From: an uncultured bacterium
GTDB taxonomy: Bacteria; Cyanobacteriota; Vampirovibrionia; Obscuribacterales; Obscuribacteraceae
Assembly (NCBI GenBank): GCA_903835185.1
Contig: CAILLX010000070.1
Location: forward strand, 1-64,000
DNA length: 64,000 nt
Direction of reading: 5' to 3'
Both the position numbers and the translations under genes were made by a program. Under the pieces are notes generated by a model. The model was given only the letters and a program-made list of their open reading frames with translations, made no database searches and was not told where the DNA came from. Positions 243 to 18,054 of this stretch are shown one piece after another; the first letter of the stretch is position 1; every line of letters starts with the position of its first letter.

Positions 243-815
243 ATGGCACTTCTTCCACAGCGCAACGCTACAGCTTCGAACTCGTCCAATATCCTTCTTG
301 ATGTAAAAAAAGGTAACCAGCAGGCGCGGAACGAGTTTATTTGGCAGAACCAGGAGCGTTTTTATGCGATTGCCTTTTTAGCAACGGGAGACCCTGATGT
401 TGCTACACAGTTGACTATTATGGCGTTCAAGAATGTTTTTGCTGCGCTACATCAGTCCAATCCGAAACAGCTGAGCAGCGCTGGAGCGGAGTGGCTTTCT
501 CAGTTTATTGTTGATGCATGTGCAGAGTTTCACATGCAGTATTCTGCTCCTCCACCGGCCAATCCGACGACAGATCCCAGCGCTGACGGTTCGGCTCAGA
601 TGGATTGGGAGACTACAGTAATTTTAGGACCACAGCGAGTCAAGCGTTGTTTGGCAGGACTTCCTGAAGAACAGCGAAATGCTTATGTTTTGCGCCATCA
701 GCTAGGACTTACTTATGACCAGGTAGCTGCTGTATTGAATCAAAACCCGGACAACATTTTAGCCTGGTTGTTTCGGGCGCGGGTCCAGATAGTAAAGGGT
801 TTGGGGCGCGGTTAA
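243..815 (+). CDS. sigma-70 (ECF-like) RNA polymerase sigma factor, divergent
   Basis: A 190-residue protein with the two-domain layout of ECF sigma factors. An N-terminal helical region (about 18-75, region 2-like, weakly conserved) is followed by a polar linker (about 100-120). A C-terminal region 4 helix-turn-helix (about 133-185) contains LPEEQRNAYVLRHQLGLTYDQVA, broken by family convention at the turn, then a recognition helix with AWLFRAR in place of the usual VKSRLxRAR. The likely role is promoter recognition by core RNA polymerase. The gene directly precedes, by about 26 nt, a protein with an anti-sigma-type zinc finger, so the pair probably forms a regulatory unit. Region 2 is poorly conserved, so promoter-melting competence is uncertain. 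The ATG at 243 has no strong ribosome binding site. Confidence 0.75.
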   Translation: MALLPQRNATASNSSNILLDVKKGNQQARNEFIWQNQERFYAIAFLATGDPDVATQLTIMAFKNVFAALHQSNPKQLSSAGAEWLSQFIVDACAEFHMQYSAPPPANPTTDPSADGSAQMDWETTVILGPQRVKRCLAGLPEEQRNAYVLRHQLGLTYDQVAAVLNQNPDNILAWLFRARVQIVKGLGRG

Positions 816-841
816 ATCAAAGTGCTTAGTTGGTAATTTAT

Positions 842-3800
842 ATGAACTGCAATCGCTTTCGCTTTCTTATACAACAACGGTTCGAGTTTGAGCTGCCTAG
901 CCAGGATGAGCGGCTGTTGGCGGCACATCTGGACTCTTGTGAATCTTGCCTCCGATTTGAACACCAGATTGATCAGGTTATTCAAGCAGCCCAAGAGTTG
1001 CCGTTCCCGGAAGAAGCTGTACCGATCAACCTTGAGTCGGTTGCACGCATGATTATGCAGCAGTTGCCGCAACCAAAATCATCGCCGATGGAGATCTTTG
1101 CTAGGATTTTTGGTGGCGGCAAAGATAAGGCTCCTAAGAAGGAGGCTCCAGCTCAAACTGCGACCGGCAGCCATTTCCCTCATGTGAAGAGGCAGCAAAG
1201 TGCATCAGAGCAGAGCCAGACAGCTTCGCGGGCTAAAAAGCTAAGCATCTCTGAATCCGAGGAACAGCAAGCAACCTCCATGCGCCTCAATCGCATGTCA
1301 AAGAGGACTATCCAGCATGGTGAATCGGGCGACCAGACTCAAAGCGGAATACAGTCTCTTGGTGCAAAGTTTGGAAAGGCTGTGCCAGCGCAAGGACAGT
1401 TGCGGAAAGAGCAACCGCTTACTTTAGCAGATACGATTCGTAAGAAAGTTTCTGAAGATATGCATTCCAAGGAGAAGCAGAGTGCAGACGACGCTGGCGA
1501 GGCTTCACAACCTCCAGCAGCGCAGTGGATTGCTGGGGACAGCGGAGCGAATGCACCGGATAAGGCAGGGTGGGGCGCACCACCTGATCTGTCGGTAGCT
1601 GGGCAGGGAGCTCCAGTCTCAGGTGATGTAAGTTCTGGGGGGGGCAATTTGGGAGCACCAGCAGGTGGGAGTTGGGACCAACCGCCAGAGAGCTGGGAAC
1701 AATCAGTAGCACCTGCAGCACCAACAGCCAGGGATCAAGGCTGGGGTCAGCCAGCGTCTGCACCAGCAGGTGGGAGTTGGGACCAACCGGCCGAGAGCTG
1801 GGTGCAACCAGCAGCAACAGCTGTGCCTGCTGATCAAGGCTGGGGAATGTCAGTGGTGCCTGTGGCACCAACTGTGCCTGCTGATCAAGGTTGGGCAACA
1901 CCGGCAGCACCTGCCGGTGGCTCCTGGAGCGAATCAGGCACTAGTTGGCATCAGTCCGGAACGACGTCTGAAACGCCAGCCCGGAGCTGGGATGAGCCGG
2001 CTACACCCGAGCAAACATTTGGCGGTAACATAGCTGAAGCAGGACAAGCGCCTGGTGCAGCCAATGCAGCGCCGCCGACTCCTGCCGGCTGGGGTTCTCA
2101 ACCTGGCTGGCAGCAACCAGATTCTCAGTCTGGCAACCTCTGGAGTGAACTGCCGACTCCGCAAGCTTCAAGTGGCGGCAGCTGGTCGTTTGATGCAGAG
2201 CAAGTTCAGACCGGCACCTGGGAAGCATTTCAAGAAAGCGGACCGGAGCTTCTTGGTGCACCGAGCTCACAAGCAGCACCCAATGTGCAACCACCCAATC
2301 CACGGGCTGCTGCCGATGGGGCAGGTGCTGGAGCTGAGAGGTGGGATGTTCCGATTCAAGAGAGGATGCAGCAGCTTCAATCTGCTGCTGGTCAAGGCGG
2401 CGGTACTACCGATAACCGGTGGGACATTCCGATTCAGGAAAGGATGAAGTCCCAGTCCCAAGCACAGACCGGCCCGGTCCCAGCTGTACCACAACAACCT
2501 GTGCCTGTCGCAGGAACATCTGGGGTTCCAGCCGATTCAATCATGGATCGCTTAAGCAACATCCTCGGCGATGTGCCACTTGATTCACAAGAGCCACAGT
2601 CGCCGGTGCTGCAAACGCCTGTGCAAGAAACAACAACCTCTTCTGACAGATGGGATTTGCCAATTCAAGAGAGAATGAAACAGTCTCAGACAGTGCAAAA
2701 TCCAGCATCGGTTCCCTTACAAACTGCTGCTGCAACGCCTCCACCGCCGCCGCTTGCACCGGCACAGCAGGACCGGTGGGATGTGCCGATTCAGGAGCGG
2801 ATGAAGCAATCTCAGTTGCAACCTGCTGCGAACATTCAGGGAGCGCCAGCTGCTCCAGCTGCGCCAGTTGCCGCCGGAGGAATATTTAATTTAGATGATG
2901 GGGCTATTGATCGTTTGTTTAGCCAAAATCTGGGAGTTGCTGAAGAAGCAGGAGCAGCTGCAACGCCGGCTCCAAAACAGGTGAACAATGTGCCACCACC
3001 GCCTGTTGTTCAGCCAGTTGCTGCCAGACCAGCTCAAGCTCCTGCTACCGGACAGTACCAGTTGCCGCCTGCACAAGTGCCGCCAGCACCAACTATATCT
3101 CCGGTGACTGCTGCGCCGAGAAGCGACTTTTCAGCGCTGCCAGCGCCACCAGCTCCTGTCCAGGGTCCTGCTGGGGCAGGTTTGTTGAAAAACCTGGATG
3201 ATAATGCCATAGACCGCTTATTCTCCGATAATCTTGGAGTTAGCGAACCGGCTCAAGCTGTCAACGTTCCCGCGCCGACCGTACCACAGGTGTCTTCATC
3301 GCCGGTGGCACAGGCGGTGCCGGCTGCTCCAGTGCCCATGCCGACTTTACAATCTTCATCGTCTCAACAGACCTCACCCACGATACCACCGGCGCCACCG
3401 ATACCACAGGCAAGTCAGCCTAAAGGTGGTGGGTTGTTTAGTATTGATGATTCAGACATGGATAAGCTCTTTGCCAATAACTTAGGTATCAAGGATACTG
3501 CAGCTCCAGCTCCTGTGGAAGTCAATGAGGCTATTCAGTCAATCAGGACCGCAGCTGAAGTGTTTGGTGTGGTGCCTGCTCCTGTGACGCTACCACCTGC
3601 GCCTCAAGCGCCCCAACCAGCTCAGAGTCAGCTTAGTGCAGCTCCGCCAGAGCGTGTTGAGGGGTTGGGACGGCTAGCCAGTGGTGCTGATCCGTCTGCT
3701 GAGACAGGTAGTGGCAAGATTGCCAGCATCGGCAAGTTCCTTCTCGACCAGCAAGACCTGGCCAAGATAGGAAATATTGCCGGAGCTGATCTCTCCGACT

Positions 3801-4171
3801 CTAAGATGCGAATACTAACGCTTGAAGCAGCACAAGAGTTGCAGACTTTGCTTGTGCATATTCAGAAGCAACCTGGTGTGGTCGGCTCTGTTATTGTCGG
3901 ACACGACGGTATATTGATTGCTAACAACATTCCTCCAGAGTATGAAGCCGAGTCAATAGGTGTCTTGGCTTTAGGTGTGTACTTGAATACTGATACAGCG
4001 CTAAAGAAACTGGGGCACAATCATGTGCATCAAGCGGTATGTCGCACTTCTCGTGGGTATCTCATCATTGCTGATTTTGGTGGCGGGATATTGGTGACAC
4101 TATCTGACCAGCCTGAAACCGAACGGCTAATCCCGCTCATGCGAAGCATCACCCAGTTGGTCAGTCAGTAG
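842..4171 (+). CDS. zinc-finger (anti-sigma-type) / repeat linker / Roadblock-LC7 protein
   Basis: About 1109 residues from ATG 842; a TTG at 830 would add four. Residues near 1-50 carry a ZAS-like zinc motif (an early Cys, then HLDSCESC, i.e. H-x3-C-x2-C), as in anti-sigma factors. The C-terminal ~120 residues (from about nt 3806) read as a Roadblock/LC7 domain, the family of MglB and other small-GTPase regulators: VVGSVIVGHDGILIANNIP and later GYLIIADFGGGILVTLS. Between them lie ~850 residues rich in Pro, Ala, Gln, Ser and Gly. These hold three repeat families: GGSW(D/S)..ESW near 1655-1960, four RWD(V/I/L)PIQERM motifs, and four DD..(I/M)DRLF motifs. No membrane segment or signal peptide is visible. 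The gene follows the sigma-like gene at 243. The architecture is inferred to link sigma control to a Roadblock scaffold; the partners are unknown. Confidence 0.75.
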   Translation: MNCNRFRFLIQQRFEFELPSQDERLLAAHLDSCESCLRFEHQIDQVIQAAQELPFPEEAVPINLESVARMIMQQLPQPKSSPMEIFARIFGGGKDKAPKKEAPAQTATGSHFPHVKRQQSASEQSQTASRAKKLSISESEEQQATSMRLNRMSKRTIQHGESGDQTQSGIQSLGAKFGKAVPAQGQLRKEQPLTLADTIRKKVSEDMHSKEKQSADDAGEASQPPAAQWIAGDSGANAPDKAGWGAPPDLSVAGQGAPVSGDVSSGGGNLGAPAGGSWDQPPESWEQSVAPAAPTARDQGWGQPASAPAGGSWDQPAESWVQPAATAVPADQGWGMSVVPVAPTVPADQGWATPAAPAGGSWSESGTSWHQSGTTSETPARSWDEPATPEQTFGGNIAEAGQAPGAANAAPPTPAGWGSQPGWQQPDSQSGNLWSELPTPQASSGGSWSFDAEQVQTGTWEAFQESGPELLGAPSSQAAPNVQPPNPRAAADGAGAGAERWDVPIQERMQQLQSAAGQGGGTTDNRWDIPIQERMKSQSQAQTGPVPAVPQQPVPVAGTSGVPADSIMDRLSNILGDVPLDSQEPQSPVLQTPVQETTTSSDRWDLPIQERMKQSQTVQNPASVPLQTAAATPPPPPLAPAQQDRWDVPIQERMKQSQLQPAANIQGAPAAPAAPVAAGGIFNLDDGAIDRLFSQNLGVAEEAGAAATPAPKQVNNVPPPPVVQPVAARPAQAPATGQYQLPPAQVPPAPTISPVTAAPRSDFSALPAPPAPVQGPAGAGLLKNLDDNAIDRLFSDNLGVSEPAQAVNVPAPTVPQVSSSPVAQAVPAAPVPMPTLQSSSSQQTSPTIPPAPPIPQASQPKGGGLFSIDDSDMDKLFANNLGIKDTAAPAPVEVNEAIQSIRTAAEVFGVVPAPVTLPPAPQAPQPAQSQLSAAPPERVEGLGRLASGADPSAETGSGKIASIGKFLLDQQDLAKIGNIAGADLSDSKMRILTLEAAQELQTLLVHIQKQPGVVGSVIVGHDGILIANNIPPEYEAESIGVLALGVYLNTDTALKKLGHNHVHQAVCRTSRGYLIIADFGGGILVTLSDQPETERLIPLMRSITQLVSQ
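1655..1789 (+). repeat. direct nucleotide repeat inside the Roadblock-protein linker
   Basis: A 30-bp segment at 1655-1684 recurs identically at 1760-1789, offset by 105 bp (35 codons). It encodes the APAGGSWDQP type repeat. Shorter repeats encoding VPADQGW follow near 1823-1890. The near identity at DNA level points to recent in-frame duplication. Confidence 0.8.
2339..2803 (+). repeat. four RWD(V/I/L)PIQERM peptide repeats
   Basis: In-frame copies of a ten-residue motif lie at 2339-2368, 2417-2446, 2648-2677 and 2774-2803. The motif core RWD-x-PIQERM is nearly invariant, while the linkers between copies are unrelated low-complexity sequence. The copies differ in codons, so selection on the peptide rather than recent duplication probably keeps them. 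They look like short linear binding motifs. Confidence 0.85.
2531..3490 (+). repeat. four DD-x2-(I/M)DRLF-x2-NLG(V/I) peptide repeats
   Basis: Copies lie at 2531-2575 (divergent: MDRLSNILGDV), 2879-2938, 3179-3241 and 3431-3490. The consensus is a hydrophobic pair, then DD, two to three residues, (I/M)D(R/K)LF, two residues, NLG(V/I). The acidic-amphipathic pattern suggests short helices spaced 50-110 residues apart in a disordered linker, probably a second class of docking motif. Confidence 0.8.
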
Positions 4172-5788: not shown

Positions 5789-7624
5789 TTAGTGCAGGCA
5801 GCCGTGTATCACTTCAGCGACTATAGCGTTAACTGTATCAGGATCTATCTCGCGCCTGCAGTGTCCGAGATAAGCTTCCATCCATCGTCTCAACTCTAAA
5901 AGGACCTCTGAAAGTTTAACTCCTGATCTTTTGACAAGAGCTAAATTTATGCTGATGCGTCCGTCTGGATCTACCTGGAAGCGGTAAGAAGCATCAGACG
6001 ATCCATGAACATAGCGCAGACTTGCCTCGAGAATATCTTTGCTTTGCTGTGGACCGCATATCTGTTCAAGCCGGGAGGCGATCTTTTGAAATACTGTCAG
6101 CGGACGGAATAAGCTTGATTCTTGGATCTGAATCCAGTTGTGATCCAGAAGTAGCTGCAGCGACTTTATTACCATGTAACCAGGCCAGCGATCATAACGT
6201 TTCACAATCTCTGCCACTGTGCTCCAGCCGTCAATAATCTGAGCTAACTCTGCCACTGCTGTTCTGTCGCAGCTAGTAAGCATAGAGCCGTCGGCAAACC
6301 GTAACTCATTGTCAGCACGCTGCTGCCAGAGCTGATCAAAGTTCCAAATGCGCTCGACAACTGCATTCTTGCCCCCAGGCAGTCTGGAGAGAGCATCTTT
6401 CATCTGATCTTGATAAAGAGCCGAATCAAGGAGTATCCTCTCGAGAGACTGTGACAATGCACTGCCAGCATCCAGATCTTGCGCAGTTCCTCTGTCGCGG
6501 AAGACGAAAATACCCTCTTCCCAGGAGACAAGAAACTCAGTAAGGGCGTTATACCCTTTCAGCAAGCCTGCGGCTGCATCCGTTGGCTTGCCATCTGTGA
6601 AGGAGACAACAACTGTCTTATCCTGATTCTCAACTGTCAGGACTCCAGTCTTATTGCCAGTTGCTAGAGATTGCAACAGACCGGCAGCATCAATGGCTCC
6701 TAAAGAGCCTATCATGGCATCTTTCACTGTCTCCATATTGCCGCTGCCGGCACCATAGGAGATATCACCGCCGGTGACCTTATGGTAGCCGCCATAAAGA
6801 TATTGATCGTGAAGGAGTATCTCTAATTCACGTTCATTGATATAGCCGCTACGCACAGCAAGCAATCCTAGAGCAGTGCGCTCTTTGCGTCCCCAACCCT
6901 CCTCCTGCTGTGCTTCAAGCAGCTCTTCAAGTTGGGATGGTGTGATTAAGCCGGCAGCAACTAAATAATGACCTAAGCGGAACGGCTTGTGGTTGTGATA
7001 GCAGTTGGACAAGAATTGAATGCGAGGGAAAATCGGGAAAATAATACCGGCAGACTCCAGCTCTTGCAGGATGCGCAAAGTCTCATCGCAGGCAAGGTGA
7101 TACTGTTCTTCGGCTGATCTTGAGATTAGTTCGACAGCAGAGTAATTGTCGATGAGCTGCAACACCCAGTTTTGTGGTGCAGGGAGCTCAAACTGGCTCT
7201 TCTGTTGCAGACCTGTTTTAGTCAGTATAGGTGTTGAAGTGGATAAAATATGATTGGCCAGGGTGCTGCCAGCGCCTCGCAACCGGCGCCTGTCAACCCC
7301 GGCAATGGTCGCACAGACATAATCGGACAGAAGCGGATAACGGGCGAAGATGGAGGAGACGTTGTCGTATACGTTAAGTGTCAGTCCACCGGATGGATCG
7401 TCTCGTGTCAGGGTAATGGCGCCATCTGACTTAATAAATAGAAGCACCCCTTTAGGAGTTAATAGCCGCCTGGCCTGGGCATGAAACTTGACGAATGTGT
7501 CGAGCGGTAAGGAATAGCCGGTGTGAGTCAGGTCTATTACCAGCCCATCAAAGATCTTCCCTTCGTCAACCAGACGATCAAATTCAGCAAAAAGACTCTC
7601 TCTGAATGCATAAGTGCGAAACAT
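5789..7624 (-). CDS. MshEN-like / DUF4388 (PATAN) regulatory protein
   Basis: 611 residues. Around residues 215-275 there are two copies of the LGxxLVxxGLITxxQLxxxLxxQ pattern (RLGHYLVAAGLITPSQLEELLEAQ, split here by the second copy LGLLAVRSGYINERELEILL), typical of MshEN/GspE N-terminal domains. Residues about 305-378 match DUF4388: GSLGAIDAAGLLQSL, TGVLTV, DGKPTDA and FLVSWEEGIFVF. The first ~100 residues contain ARRLLTPKGVLLFI, reminiscent of a Rossmann methyltransferase or receiver-like fold, without a clear cofactor motif. It starts 4 nt after the stop of the secreted-protein gene, so the two are almost certainly cotranscribed. DUF4388 proteins usually belong to gliding or two-component-type signalling; the exact function is unknown. 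Confidence 0.7.
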   Translation of the reverse strand: MFRTYAFRESLFAEFDRLVDEGKIFDGLVIDLTHTGYSLPLDTFVKFHAQARRLLTPKGVLLFIKSDGAITLTRDDPSGGLTLNVYDNVSSIFARYPLLSDYVCATIAGVDRRRLRGAGSTLANHILSTSTPILTKTGLQQKSQFELPAPQNWVLQLIDNYSAVELISRSAEEQYHLACDETLRILQELESAGIIFPIFPRIQFLSNCYHNHKPFRLGHYLVAAGLITPSQLEELLEAQQEEGWGRKERTALGLLAVRSGYINERELEILLHDQYLYGGYHKVTGGDISYGAGSGNMETVKDAMIGSLGAIDAAGLLQSLATGNKTGVLTVENQDKTVVVSFTDGKPTDAAAGLLKGYNALTEFLVSWEEGIFVFRDRGTAQDLDAGSALSQSLERILLDSALYQDQMKDALSRLPGGKNAVVERIWNFDQLWQQRADNELRFADGSMLTSCDRTAVAELAQIIDGWSTVAEIVKRYDRWPGYMVIKSLQLLLDHNWIQIQESSLFRPLTVFQKIASRLEQICGPQQSKDILEASLRYVHGSSDASYRFQVDPDGRISINLALVKRSGVKLSEVLLELRRWMEAYLGHCRREIDPDTVNAIVAEVIHGCLH

Positions 7625-7628
7625 CTGT

Positions 7629-9035
7629 TCAGCGCTCCCCTGTAGGCGGTGCTTGTGCGTCGGTGGTGTCAGAGCGATTTTCGCTGTTGCCCGGCGCTGC
7701 TGTGGCGCTACTTGTCTTGCCTTTATTTTTGGGAGCTGCTTCAGTTGATGAATCGCCTTCGCTGCTGCGGGCAGTTGGAGACTGTTGTCCTTGAGCAGGC
7801 TGTAAGTTACGAGCAATCTTCTGCAGCACAGGATCGGCAGCAGCAATAAACAGTGCTTTTATTGCCCACTGACGCTTGGTTTTGATTACATCGCAAATCA
7901 GGTCGTAACGGCCAAATGTGACCAGGCGGTAACGATAACTGGTGGCGGCCGGACTCACCATGCGTATGATTCTTGATGGTGTTGCTGCCGGTTTGGTGCC
8001 CAGCCCTATATATTTTGGGATGCTGACAAGGCTGCTGTCGATCAGCCAGGCTTTGGCCAGGTCGGTACGCCCTTGATCAATGGCGTGAACGAAGGAGAGG
8101 ATTGCATGATAAGGGGTGTCTTCACAGGCGCTCCCTTCCAGGATATATCTACCGGCAATCAGCTTAAAAGGCATCTTGTAACTAATTGATGGCGCTTGTG
8201 CAGAGGCTGTTCTGGTGTTCAAACCTGCTGTGTTGTTTGCTGGAGATACTGAGGGAGTTATGGTGACTATAAGATCTGGTCCGCTGAATCCTGCCACTCC
8301 TGAGACATTGTCTACCAGAAACGGTGGTATAGCTGACAGAGGCTCGTTGTTCTCTCGCCAACCATCAGCAGTCAGTCTATAACTTGCCAACCAGATACCG
8401 CCATCAGTGCGCTGACCTGTTGTCACCAGAAAGCGGGCATGTTCAACCCGGCTACCTTTATCAACCGGGGTAGCAACTCCGAGCAGGCGCGCATCCTTCA
8501 AGATTACCCTGCCGGGCAATGTGAGCTCGTCTACTCTATATAAGTTAACCGAGACTGCCTTTGTGCGGCGCCTGCTTATGCGAACAACTGATGTTCTGGT
8601 TTCGTTCCACTCAATAAGAGCCACCTGCCCTTGCTCAACTTTTGGGAAACTCCAGATATGTGCTGACCCGGCGGAAATGATCTGTACTCCTAGCTCAGAC
8701 AGGCAAGGATGGCTCTTAATAATTATGGCTGGCTCTTGATGGTCTGTATGAAGAAGCTGTTTGAGCAACTTTATTACAGCAGACCAGCTGATCTGCCCTG
8801 GATCTGTTGTGAAGTTGTGCACAGCTGTTGTAAGTGCAGTTGATGTTGCTGCCTGGTTTGCAGCTGCCTCTCCTGGTTCTGGGCTTGCAGCAGCCGCTGC
8901 CGCAACCCTGTCCTTGGAAAGAGTAACCGAAGAAGGCTTGCCTTTGCTGGACAGGCTATGCGCCTGTTTGGGGCTGCCCGGGGTATTAACTGAGAGTCCC
9001 AGAGTAAGAAGAAGAGCAATTGCATTTATTTTCAT
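7629..9035 (-). CDS. secreted protein of unknown function
   Basis: 468 residues with an N-terminal signal-peptide-like segment (short basic start MKIN, hydrophobic ALLLTLGLSV, then polar). The mature N-terminus is Ala/Ser-rich and the C-terminal ~60 residues are low complexity (Ser/Thr/Ala/Pro). In between lies a ~300-residue globular part with alternating beta-like stretches, for example RFLVTTGQRTDGGIWLASYRLTADG (cut by me for description). I recognise no family. A -10-like TATAAT lies about 30 nt upstream on the minus strand. The next gene starts 4 nt downstream, so export and the DUF4388 regulator appear functionally tied. Confidence 0.65.
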   Translation of the reverse strand: MKINAIALLLTLGLSVNTPGSPKQAHSLSSKGKPSSVTLSKDRVAAAAAASPEPGEAAANQAATSTALTTAVHNFTTDPGQISWSAVIKLLKQLLHTDHQEPAIIIKSHPCLSELGVQIISAGSAHIWSFPKVEQGQVALIEWNETRTSVVRISRRRTKAVSVNLYRVDELTLPGRVILKDARLLGVATPVDKGSRVEHARFLVTTGQRTDGGIWLASYRLTADGWRENNEPLSAIPPFLVDNVSGVAGFSGPDLIVTITPSVSPANNTAGLNTRTASAQAPSISYKMPFKLIAGRYILEGSACEDTPYHAILSFVHAIDQGRTDLAKAWLIDSSLVSIPKYIGLGTKPAATPSRIIRMVSPAATSYRYRLVTFGRYDLICDVIKTKRQWAIKALFIAAADPVLQKIARNLQPAQGQQSPTARSSEGDSSTEAAPKNKGKTSSATAAPGNSENRSDTTDAQAPPTGER

Positions 9036-16029: not shown

Positions 16030-16536
16030 CTACTGGTCGCCAGGGCGGGTCCACATATGGCGCACTCTTTGTATTAGATACTGAACATGGTCTGGCATGA
16101 CGTCCGCCGCTGCACCAGGGTGTATAGATCGTTGCCTTTCAGCTACCACCTGGTGGATCATGTCTTCCAGATTGTGCTGCTGCTCTTCATTCAAGAGCTG
16201 GCGCTTGCGTAGATAGTTGGTTGTGGCAGTTGCTCTTAGCAGCTCCTTCTTGCGGGCAATTGACTGTTGCAAGGCAATAATCTCAAGCGGATCAGATCGC
16301 GGGTCTGAAAGCAGCCTGGCAAGTTTGTGCTGCTCATCGACAATAGCAGGCTGGATCTGCATGTAATCATGGTTCCACTGAGATTCAAGAGTCTGAATCT
16401 GCTGTGTTTGTTGCTGGTTCAGATTTAACCTTTGCCAGTTGATGCCGCACTGACTTTCATCTGCCCGCGCTGCAGTGTTGGCGCCAATGACAATGGACGC
16501 AAGAGAAGACAAGAGATAGCTGTTATTGATTTTCAT
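16030..16536 (-). CDS. Spy/CpxP-like periplasmic protein
   Basis: 168 residues from ATG 16536. A signal peptide (MKINNSYLLSSLASIVIGANTAARA) is followed by an all-helical, Gln/Glu/Arg-rich body: RLNLNQQQTQQIQTLESQW matches the LTxxQ pattern of Spy/CpxP and heavy-metal-resistance proteins, and LNEEQQHNLEDMI is a second copy. Such proteins are periplasmic chaperones or sensors of envelope stress. The start overlaps the stop of the anti-sigma gene by 14 nt, so the three genes (sigma, anti-sigma, Spy-like) form one operon. It is inferred to sense misfolded envelope proteins for the pathway. Confidence 0.72.
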   Translation of the reverse strand: MKINNSYLLSSLASIVIGANTAARADESQCGINWQRLNLNQQQTQQIQTLESQWNHDYMQIQPAIVDEQHKLARLLSDPRSDPLEIIALQQSIARKKELLRATATTNYLRKRQLLNEEQQHNLEDMIHQVVAERQRSIHPGAAADVMPDHVQYLIQRVRHMWTRPGDQ

Positions 16537-17428
16537 AAACGACTGCTTCTGCAATGTCTGCAGGTTCGGCCATGGCGGACTCTAAAAGATAAGATTCGGC
16601 GCTGACCGGTCGAACCGCCTGGTTGCCGACTGTATTTGTCACAAAAGTGAGAGTACCTACCAGACCTACCGCCACGGCTGCTGCTGTTAGTAAAACAAGA
16701 TACTTACGAGCATGTGTGGTACCAAGGTTTTGTTTGCTTCTTTCGCCTGTTGTAATGGGGATGACGTTTATGGCACGTTTAATCCCTGTCCAAAGATCGA
16801 AATCTTCAGGCAAGACAGGCTGATAGTGGGTGCGAATTAGGTCGCCCATCTGGGAAAGTCCGTTAAACTCCTCCTGGCACTCCTGACACTCAAGAAGATG
16901 TCTTGTTATAGTTCTGTGCCGCAGGGTGGCAACTTCCTGATCGACAAAGACTGAGAGCTCGCTGCGGATTAAGGTGCAGTCGGCGTTAAGTCTTGACTTG
17001 ACACCGCCCCACAGATCGACAATCAAGGTTTGAGGAAGCTCTAATGCTTTTGAAATCAGCTGATTGGTGGCGTTCAACTTCTTGAATTTGTCACGGCAGT
17101 TAAAACATTCCTTCAAATGTGAATTGATCCCTTCTTGGGCAGAAAGTGGCAACTCCCCGTCAAGATAAGCTGAAAGGTCATCATTAATGACCTCACACAT
17201 ATTTGGCAGATGAGCGCTTACTTGACCCCAGATGTCAGGTATAGGCAGCTCCTCCCCAGGCAACTTCTTTGAAAGGAGTTGGCTTACCGCGCGCAACCCT
17301 TCACACTCCTGGCGGCAACATTCACATTCAAGAAGGTGGTCGGCAATTTCGGAGCGGACCATGCTACTCGTTTCGTTGTCAAGATAGCTTGAAAGCTCTT
17401 CTTTTATACGAGTGCAAGTTGTATTCAT
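16523..17428 (-). CDS. membrane anti-sigma factor with three tandem zinc-finger domains
   Basis: 301 residues. Three ZAS-type zinc fingers repeat with an exact 73-residue period: C5/H31/C35/C38, C78/H104/C108/C111 and C151/H177/C181/C184 (each an early Cys, then H-x3-C-x2-C). Each unit ends in a (D)(I/L)WGxV-like helix (DIWGQV, DLWGGV, DLWTGI). A single transmembrane helix spans about 243-265 (LVLLTAAAVAVGLVGTL), leaving ~35 residues outside. Its ATG overlaps the sigma stop codon by 4 nt (ATGA), a classic translationally coupled sigma/anti-sigma pair. Ordinary anti-sigma factors have one such domain. Confidence 0.88.
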   Translation of the reverse strand: MNTTCTRIKEELSSYLDNETSSMVRSEIADHLLECECCRQECEGLRAVSQLLSKKLPGEELPIPDIWGQVSAHLPNMCEVINDDLSAYLDGELPLSAQEGINSHLKECFNCRDKFKKLNATNQLISKALELPQTLIVDLWGGVKSRLNADCTLIRSELSVFVDQEVATLRHRTITRHLLECQECQEEFNGLSQMGDLIRTHYQPVLPEDFDLWTGIKRAINVIPITTGERSKQNLGTTHARKYLVLLTAAAVAVGLVGTLTFVTNTVGNQAVRPVSAESYLLESAMAEPADIAEAVVYENQ

Positions 17429-18054
17429 GAGGTTGGCACCTCGCTTGGCGGTGTGGCGCTTTCTAGATAAGGCTTAAGCATCTCCTGAAGCTTGGACCGT
17501 GCACGCGCTATGCGCGACTTGACCGTTCCCATCTCTGTTTTGGTCAATATCGCTATCTCCTCGTAACTTAAGCCTTCCACTTCTCGCAAGACGATGGCTG
17601 TGCGAAACTGTTCCGGCAAGCGTGTCATGGATTCGCGAATTACTTCAGAAACTTCGCGGTTAAGAACAATATCATCAGGGCGCAAAGATTTGTCTGGGAT
17701 GTCCCGGGTGGCTCCTTCGCCAGAGTCGTCTGAGTCAAATGAGTCGTCCATGGACACTGTCGGCAGTCTTCGCGGACGGCGGCGTAACTCATCGTAGAAA
17801 AGATTGGTGACAATCTGTGTGAGCCAAGATCTGAAAGAGGAAGGATTCCTTAGATTGTTAATGGAGCGCCAAATGCGGATAAATACTTCCTGGGACAGAT
17901 CAGAGGTGTCGGTCCAGTCTGGTGCCAGCTGATAGAGCAGCGCATAGACGGTACGCTGATGGCGCTTGACCAGCTCTTCAAAGGCTGCTGGTTCGCGACG
18001 CTGGCAGGCAAGCACCAGATCTCTGTCGCTCTTTTGACTGTAGGGTGTGGCCAT
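17425..18054 (-). CDS. ECF RNA polymerase sigma factor (RpoE/SigW-like)
   Basis: 209 residues. Region 2 lies at about 12-80 (LVLACQRREPAAFEELVKRHQ, then DLSQEVFIRIWRSI and SFRSWLTQIVTNLFYDELRRR), with a charged linker DDSFDSDDSGEGA. Region 4 lies at about 140-195 (RLPEQFRTAIVLREVEGLSYEEIA, then MGTVKSRIARARSKLQ). It directs RNA polymerase to stress promoters and is probably held inactive by the membrane anti-sigma encoded next. The start is supported by GAGGAG just before the ATG at 18054. It heads an operon with the anti-sigma and the Spy-like gene, fitting an envelope-stress circuit. Confidence 0.95.
   Translation of the reverse strand: MATPYSQKSDRDLVLACQRREPAAFEELVKRHQRTVYALLYQLAPDWTDTSDLSQEVFIRIWRSINNLRNPSSFRSWLTQIVTNLFYDELRRRPRRLPTVSMDDSFDSDDSGEGATRDIPDKSLRPDDIVLNREVSEVIRESMTRLPEQFRTAIVLREVEGLSYEEIAILTKTEMGTVKSRIARARSKLQEMLKPYLESATPPSEVPTS

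Follow-up and report, generated by a model that had tools for sequence, protein, structure and literature searches.

Contig C70 of a Candidatus Obscuribacterales genome carries, near its start, a sigma-like gene followed by a gene whose product joins an anti-sigma (ZAS) domain to a Roadblock/LC7 domain, and we consider it somewhat more probable than not that the first product is a sigma mimic and that a soluble anti-sigma/Roadblock scaffold bearing multivalent docking motifs holds it. The sequence analyzed, a stretch of 64,000 nucleotides, is referred to below as the window, and the Obscuribacterales are a little-known order of nonphotosynthetic relatives of cyanobacteria. Sigma/anti-sigma pairs are generally regarded as switches of gene expression; in the present pair, the switch function of the sigma half appears to be lost across the whole order, and the anti-sigma half seems to have gained a Roadblock end and conserved, putative docking motifs.

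Layout and conservation of the gene pair

The two genes have the same orientation and occupy the following positions in the window:

243 to 815, plus strand: sigma-like protein of 190 residues (degenerate ECF-type sigma), based on Pfam (Sigma70_r4_2, 1.5e-11), an alignment of 30 orthologs and an AF2 model with SigW as its best PDB match
842 to 4171, plus strand: ZAS/disordered repeat/Roadblock protein of 1109 residues, predicted to be soluble

The sigma-like gene and the ZAS-Roadblock gene are separated by 26 nucleotides; the latter starts at the ATG at 842 (an in-frame alternative, TTG, lies at 830) and ends at 4171. An earlier note on this DNA had described a sigma-like gene followed, after some 26 nucleotides, by a protein of about 1.1 kiloresidues, and its coordinates were borne out. 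The larger protein consists of three parts, namely, an N-terminal ZAS domain, a low-complexity middle rich in A, P, Q, S, and G, and a C-terminal Roadblock/LC7 domain.

Besides the window's own genome, 38 related genomes of the order were searched; 37 yielded an ortholog of the sigma-like protein, and most yielded one of the Roadblock end. At every assembled Obscuribacterales locus examined, the two genes adjoin and share an orientation. Counting the window, 26 pairs are complete; in 4 further pairs, the partner is truncated by a contig end. The comparison of neighborhoods in relatives that the earlier note had proposed was thereby passed. Since the neighboring carboxylase gene lies 145 nucleotides from a contig end in the only genome without a match (G008), with the contig break at the expected place, the absence is explained by an assembly gap, and we dropped co-loss of both genes in that genome as unsupported. 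The setting of the pair is stable across relatives as well, with the carboxylase gene on one side and an aminopeptidase gene on the other. Moreover, the protein distances correlate beyond those of the carboxylase, the one neighbor gene used as reference for the partial correlation (partial r of 0.52 for the sigma-like protein versus the ZAS domain and of 0.59 for the sigma-like protein versus the Roadblock domain). Judged from sequence comparison, the pair is an old, conserved, inherited two-protein module. It also appears to be previously undescribed: in agreement with the earlier note, which knew of no system with this layout, a search of the main texts of freely accessible papers for an anti-sigma/Roadblock system returned no matching description.

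The sequences upstream of the operon could not be aligned across the family, which led us to reject an ECF-type autoregulated promoter; no conserved ECF-type promoter was visible there, and a shared sequence, AAATTAxGTAAACTG, was common to a subset of loci only. Two other features of the surroundings were observed in relatives. At L075 (G014) and L068 (G005), extra Roadblock copies, about 52 to 57% identical to the Roadblock end of the fusion, are located directly downstream of the pair, and in about 18 loci (e.g., L065), a gene for an rpoD-like primary sigma factor is found approximately 5 kb upstream.

Fold and lost residues of the sigma-like protein

The sigma-like protein can be divided into three segments:

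273 to 545, plus strand: region-2-like helical domain (residues 11 to 101), based on AF2 helices, comparison with 21 paralogous ECFs, charges, and Pfam
573 to 629, plus strand: family-specific linker motif DPxxDGSxxMDWETTxxLG (residues 111 to 129), based on nearly invariant alignment columns and absent from paralogous ECFs
630 to 803, plus strand: region 4 (residues 130 to 187), conserved except that its recognition helix lacks the K/R-S, based on Pfam and residue comparison

Region 4, on which the earlier note had based its assignment, was confirmed by Pfam at the E value given above and is clear in all 30 family members. Region 2, on the other hand, was matched by Sigma70_r2 in a single member of the 30, at E=0.15, compared with 1.8e-19 for an ECF sigma encoded in the same window (17425 to 18054), which served as a positive control. 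The AF2 model of the sigma-like protein (pLDDT 80.7) retains the two-domain ECF fold; its Foldseek matches were SigW, AlgU, and sigma-E, with E values of 5e-6 to 1e-4, and the closest solved structure was that of SigW bound to RsiW. Neither Pfam nor the model revealed a receiver domain in the 190 residues, which hold sigma-like domains only.

The 30 orthologs were compared, residue by residue, with 21 ordinary ECFs of the window's genome and related genomes. Within the D-x2-Q-E motif of region 2.2, whose residues we take to be the coiled-coil contacts of sigma factors, D56 is found in 2/30 orthologs versus 20/21 ECF paralogs and Q59 in 0/30 versus 21/21, and the acidic residue that follows is gone in most orthologs. 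Similar losses affect N91 (2/30 versus 21/21) and R98 (0/30 versus 20/21), and the K/R at position 173, in the recognition helix, has disappeared from nearly all orthologs. W84 of region 2 is kept in the family, and N91 is retained by, for one, the f2-family ortholog L084. Structures of ECF complexes show region 2 docking via conserved residues onto the coiled coil of beta', with the -10 element contacted by the tryptophan and asparagine that correspond to W84 and N91 (PMC6411747). The charges differ as well: the mean net charge of region 2 is -3.8 in the sigma-like family versus +5.5 in the ECF paralogs, and that of region 4, which is more basic, is +6.0 versus +1.9.

Thus, of the features that define an ECF sigma, region 4 and the two-domain fold were found, and a sequence-recognizable region 2 and the D-x2-Q-E/basic promoter contacts were not. 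Since the protein fails these two of the defining features tested, it should not be filed as an ECF sigma without experiment; by its residues, it is not an ordinary ECF sigma. With the positions for docking on the beta' coiled coil and for reading or melting the -10 element lost, it is most likely not an initiator of transcription in the normal sense. The earlier note had spoken of sigma activity; as the output of the system, such activity is left unsupported by the family-wide loss of core-binding and promoter-contact residues (kept by 20 to 21 of the 21 ECF paralogs) and by the unmatched Pfam region 2.

The canonical ECF sigma used as a control (17425 to 18054, minus strand) belongs to a second sigma/anti-sigma pair in the window. 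Its gene overlaps an anti-sigma gene (16523 to 17428, minus strand) encoding 301 residues, in which three finger-like segments stand in tandem and one stretch appears to be transmembrane; Pfam matched zf-HC2 at 5.6e-16, counting two stretches. It seems unusual for a single anti-sigma to have ZAS domains in tandem.

The ZAS-Roadblock protein

The following features were assigned to the ZAS-Roadblock protein:

842 to 1081, plus strand: RsiW-like class I anti-sigma domain with C3, H29, C33, and C36, based on a profile match to PDB 5wuq, zf-HC2 in 29/30 members, and alignment
1097 to 3706, plus strand: low-complexity linker rich in A, P, Q, S, and G, about 870 residues, probably disordered, based on composition and length variation among orthologs
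2339 to 2368, plus strand: motif A, copy 1, RWDVPIQERM
2417 to 2446, plus strand: motif A, copy 2, RWDIPIQERM
2648 to 2677, plus strand: motif A, copy 3, RWDLPIQERM
2774 to 2803, plus strand: motif A, copy 4, RWDVPIQERM
2876 to 2944, plus strand: motif B, copy 1, GGIFNLDDGAIDRLFSQNLGVAE
3179 to 3247, plus strand: motif B, copy 2
3428 to 3496, plus strand: motif B, copy 3
3710 to 3766, plus strand: conserved segment ahead of the Roadblock domain, GSGKIASIGKFLLDQQDL, based on invariant alignment columns and common to related Roadblock proteins
3821 to 4162, plus strand: Roadblock/LC7 domain, based on Pfam, a PDB profile, an AF2 model, and Foldseek

On its own, the window protein scored 14.8 bits against zf-HC2, below the Pfam cutoff of 22.2, but a profile built from 30 orthologous N termini matched the anti-sigma RsiW (PDB 5wuq) over residues 2 to 80 at E=6.3e-7, and 29 of the 30 members matched zf-HC2. 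The anti-sigma-type H-x3-C-x2-C finger that the earlier note had read from the letters is indeed present, and the domain withstood the model search suggested there. Two independent searches, one leading from the ZAS profile to RsiW and the other from the sigma-like structure to SigW/RsiW, arrived at the same known complex. The zinc motif was found in 24/30 orthologs, the window included; because the pair persists in the remaining 6/30, from which the ligands have been lost in two distinct patterns, zinc is dispensable rather than an essential input, and we rejected the idea that the core function of the finger is to sense redox state or zinc. Among class I anti-sigmas in general, about 56% carry Hx3Cx2C (PMC7406223). 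No transmembrane-like stretch was detected before the Roadblock domain in any ortholog, and the protein is, accordingly, predicted to be soluble, as had been proposed. The contrast drawn at the time with the usual membrane anchoring of anti-sigma fingers is weakened: the soluble partner stands, and its rarity does not, with about 35% of class I anti-sigmas predicted to be soluble (PMC7406223).

Across orthologs, motif A (RWDxPIQERM) was matched 81 times, in 25/33 orthologs, compared with 2.15 matches expected in shuffled sequences. The core of motif B, whose 23-residue form reads GGLFNLDDsAmDkiFSdNLGVsE, was matched 63 times, in 26/33 orthologs and often in three copies, with 0 matches in shuffles; no match to motif B was found in other genes of six genomes, where it was restricted to the ZAS-Roadblock gene. 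Since both motifs are conserved while the total length of the protein varies from 744 to 1843 residues among orthologs, they are best read as candidate docking peptides.

The C-terminal Roadblock/LC7 domain, also claimed in the earlier note, held up in each of the searches: Pfam matched the window protein at 8.6e-9, a profile search against PDB matched an archaeal Roadblock at 2e-8, and the AF2 model has the expected order of helices and strands, with Foldseek matches to Roadblock structures of Asgard archaea, Streptomyces, Ragulator, and MglB at E values of about 1e-7. The qualifier "MglB-like," however, had to be given up, as the Roadblocks of archaea, conservons, and Ragulator resemble the domain no less closely than MglB does.

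In other families of the phylum, outside the window's class, Roadblock proteins (L153-L165) have the SIGKxLxDQ segment of the window protein and a repeated GGGLFDxGGLDsALDDLF element. Several of these have many copies of GGG[LM]FDxGGLDSALDDLFGD, a repeat that resembles motif B of the window protein, and one transmembrane helix. For some related Roadblock proteins, as well as for a double-Roadblock membrane protein of the window's own genome, the gene follows pheT. The latter protein (L100:2622-5789, minus strand, on contig C67), of 1055 residues, is encoded directly after pheT, shows homology to the window protein in a region that includes the SIGKxLxD segment, and might dock with the Roadblock domain encoded in the window. 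The Roadblock domains of the ZAS-Roadblock proteins form a clade of their own, with a support of 99/98, outside of which the related Roadblock proteins fall. The simplest history would be that a ZAS domain was fused to a duplicated Roadblock protein in the ancestor of the order. When an ortholog of the sigma-like protein was sought in the relatives with related Roadblock proteins, the best match was L166, which we rejected; this is an ordinary ECF with core motif DVTQDAF and its own short anti-sigma.

Readings of the pair and comparison with known systems

In the mechanism that we favor, the sigma-like protein would retain the ECF fold and be held by the RsiW-like domain of its neighbor, a partnership that is strongly suggested by the two converging searches and in which binding is predicted, and its role would be that of a sigma mimic or a docking subunit. 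The ZAS-Roadblock protein would act as a soluble scaffold, with the Roadblock end expected to form dimers, whether homodimers or heterodimers that include the membrane double-Roadblock protein, and with the flexible middle displaying several copies of both motifs that may recruit one or two partners multivalently. The likely output would be control over the place or time at which the sigma-like protein becomes available, or else a true sigma that competes with it for the ZAS domain; the data do not call for a GTPase input. Counting against a sigma mimic, region 4 is conserved and basic and W84 is kept, so some contact with DNA or polymerase may remain. More tentatively, and with the balance tipping against it, we propose that a sigma whose function has been permanently lost was kept throughout the order as the protein-protein docking subunit of a soluble Roadblock scaffold bearing multivalent short motifs, the two together forming a cytoplasmic hub that is made of parts of transcription regulators and is independent of a small GTPase.

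The main rival to a sigma mimic is a genuine, strongly diverged ECF sigma that is kept inactive by the soluble ZAS domain, with the Roadblock domain sensing or localizing and a signal releasing the sigma to an unusual promoter. The full-length ECF fold (AF2, Foldseek), the conserved and basic region 4, the classical gene order of sigma and then anti-sigma, and the retention of W84 and, in L084, of N91 would all fit; with the D-x2-Q-E motif and the R/K DNA contacts gone across the 30 orthologs, an acidic region 2, and no conserved ECF-type promoter visible upstream of the operon, we nevertheless regard a working sigma as unlikely, if a serious contender. A partner switch resembling that of PhyR, in which the sigma-like protein would titrate the ZAS domain off a true ECF sigma encoded elsewhere, seems improbable to us. 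PhyR also has a degenerate sigma-like domain that binds an anti-sigma (PMC8103513), and the genome contains several other region-4 genes, canonical ECFs among them, but the sigma-like protein is without a receiver domain or other on/off switch, the nearest true ECF (17425 to 18054) has its own membrane anti-sigma, and, because the sigma-like protein is co-encoded with the ZAS protein, the two would be expected to be bound constitutively.

A small-GTPase or polarity output of the MglA/MglB kind, suggested in the earlier note, we consider very improbable. Roadblock domains do often partner MglA-type GTPases, and the window encodes, at 5789 to 7846 (minus strand), a protein with DUF4388, a PATAN-type domain, and with a match to an MshE-type c-di-GMP-binding domain that stays below the threshold (36 bits versus 38); in 19 loci, its gene is found downstream of the pair as a conserved neighbor. 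MglB homologs have been reported near PATAN proteins (PMC4316618). However, Arf and Ras profiles gave only weak matches in 40 and 36 family genomes, respectively, and from the open-frame lengths we infer that these are the housekeeping GTPases EngB, Der, LepA, and IF2; the window's own genome is about 85% complete, so this absence is one of the family as a whole. Nor was a GTPase gene found beside the pair or among its conserved neighbors. As the searches of the family yielded no MglA/Ras-type GTPase, we rejected such a partner and regard the link to GTPases or polarity as unsupported.

If a sigma mimic on a Roadblock scaffold is indeed what the pair encodes, it would show that sigma mimicry has arisen by another route than that of PhyR and would represent a Roadblock system without a recognizable GTPase, and "sigma-70 family" labels in the phylum could mislead on function.

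Among known systems, MglB and the conservon protein CvnB share the Roadblock/LC7 fold with the window protein but are single-domain partners of small GTPases, none of which were found here. The Roadblock proteins of related lineages and the C67 protein are similar in having a long low-complexity middle and a Roadblock end after the SIGKxLxDQ segment; they differ in having a membrane or lysine-rich N terminus without ZAS and in not being encoded beside a sigma-like gene. SigW-RsiW of Bacillus provides both the top structural match of the sigma-like model (SigW) and the top profile match of the ZAS domain (RsiW). RsiW is membrane anchored and SigW is a working sigma, whereas the partner described here is predicted to be soluble, with a Roadblock end, and the sigma-like protein is without the core and promoter residues. 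Finally, PhyR of Alphaproteobacteria has, like the sigma-like protein, an ECF fold whose core- and promoter-binding regions are degenerate, in a sigma-like domain that binds an anti-sigma (PMC8103513). PhyR, however, has a phospho-receiver switch and a partner, NepR, that is not a ZAS protein, whereas the sigma-like protein is without a receiver and has a ZAS-Roadblock fusion as its putative partner.
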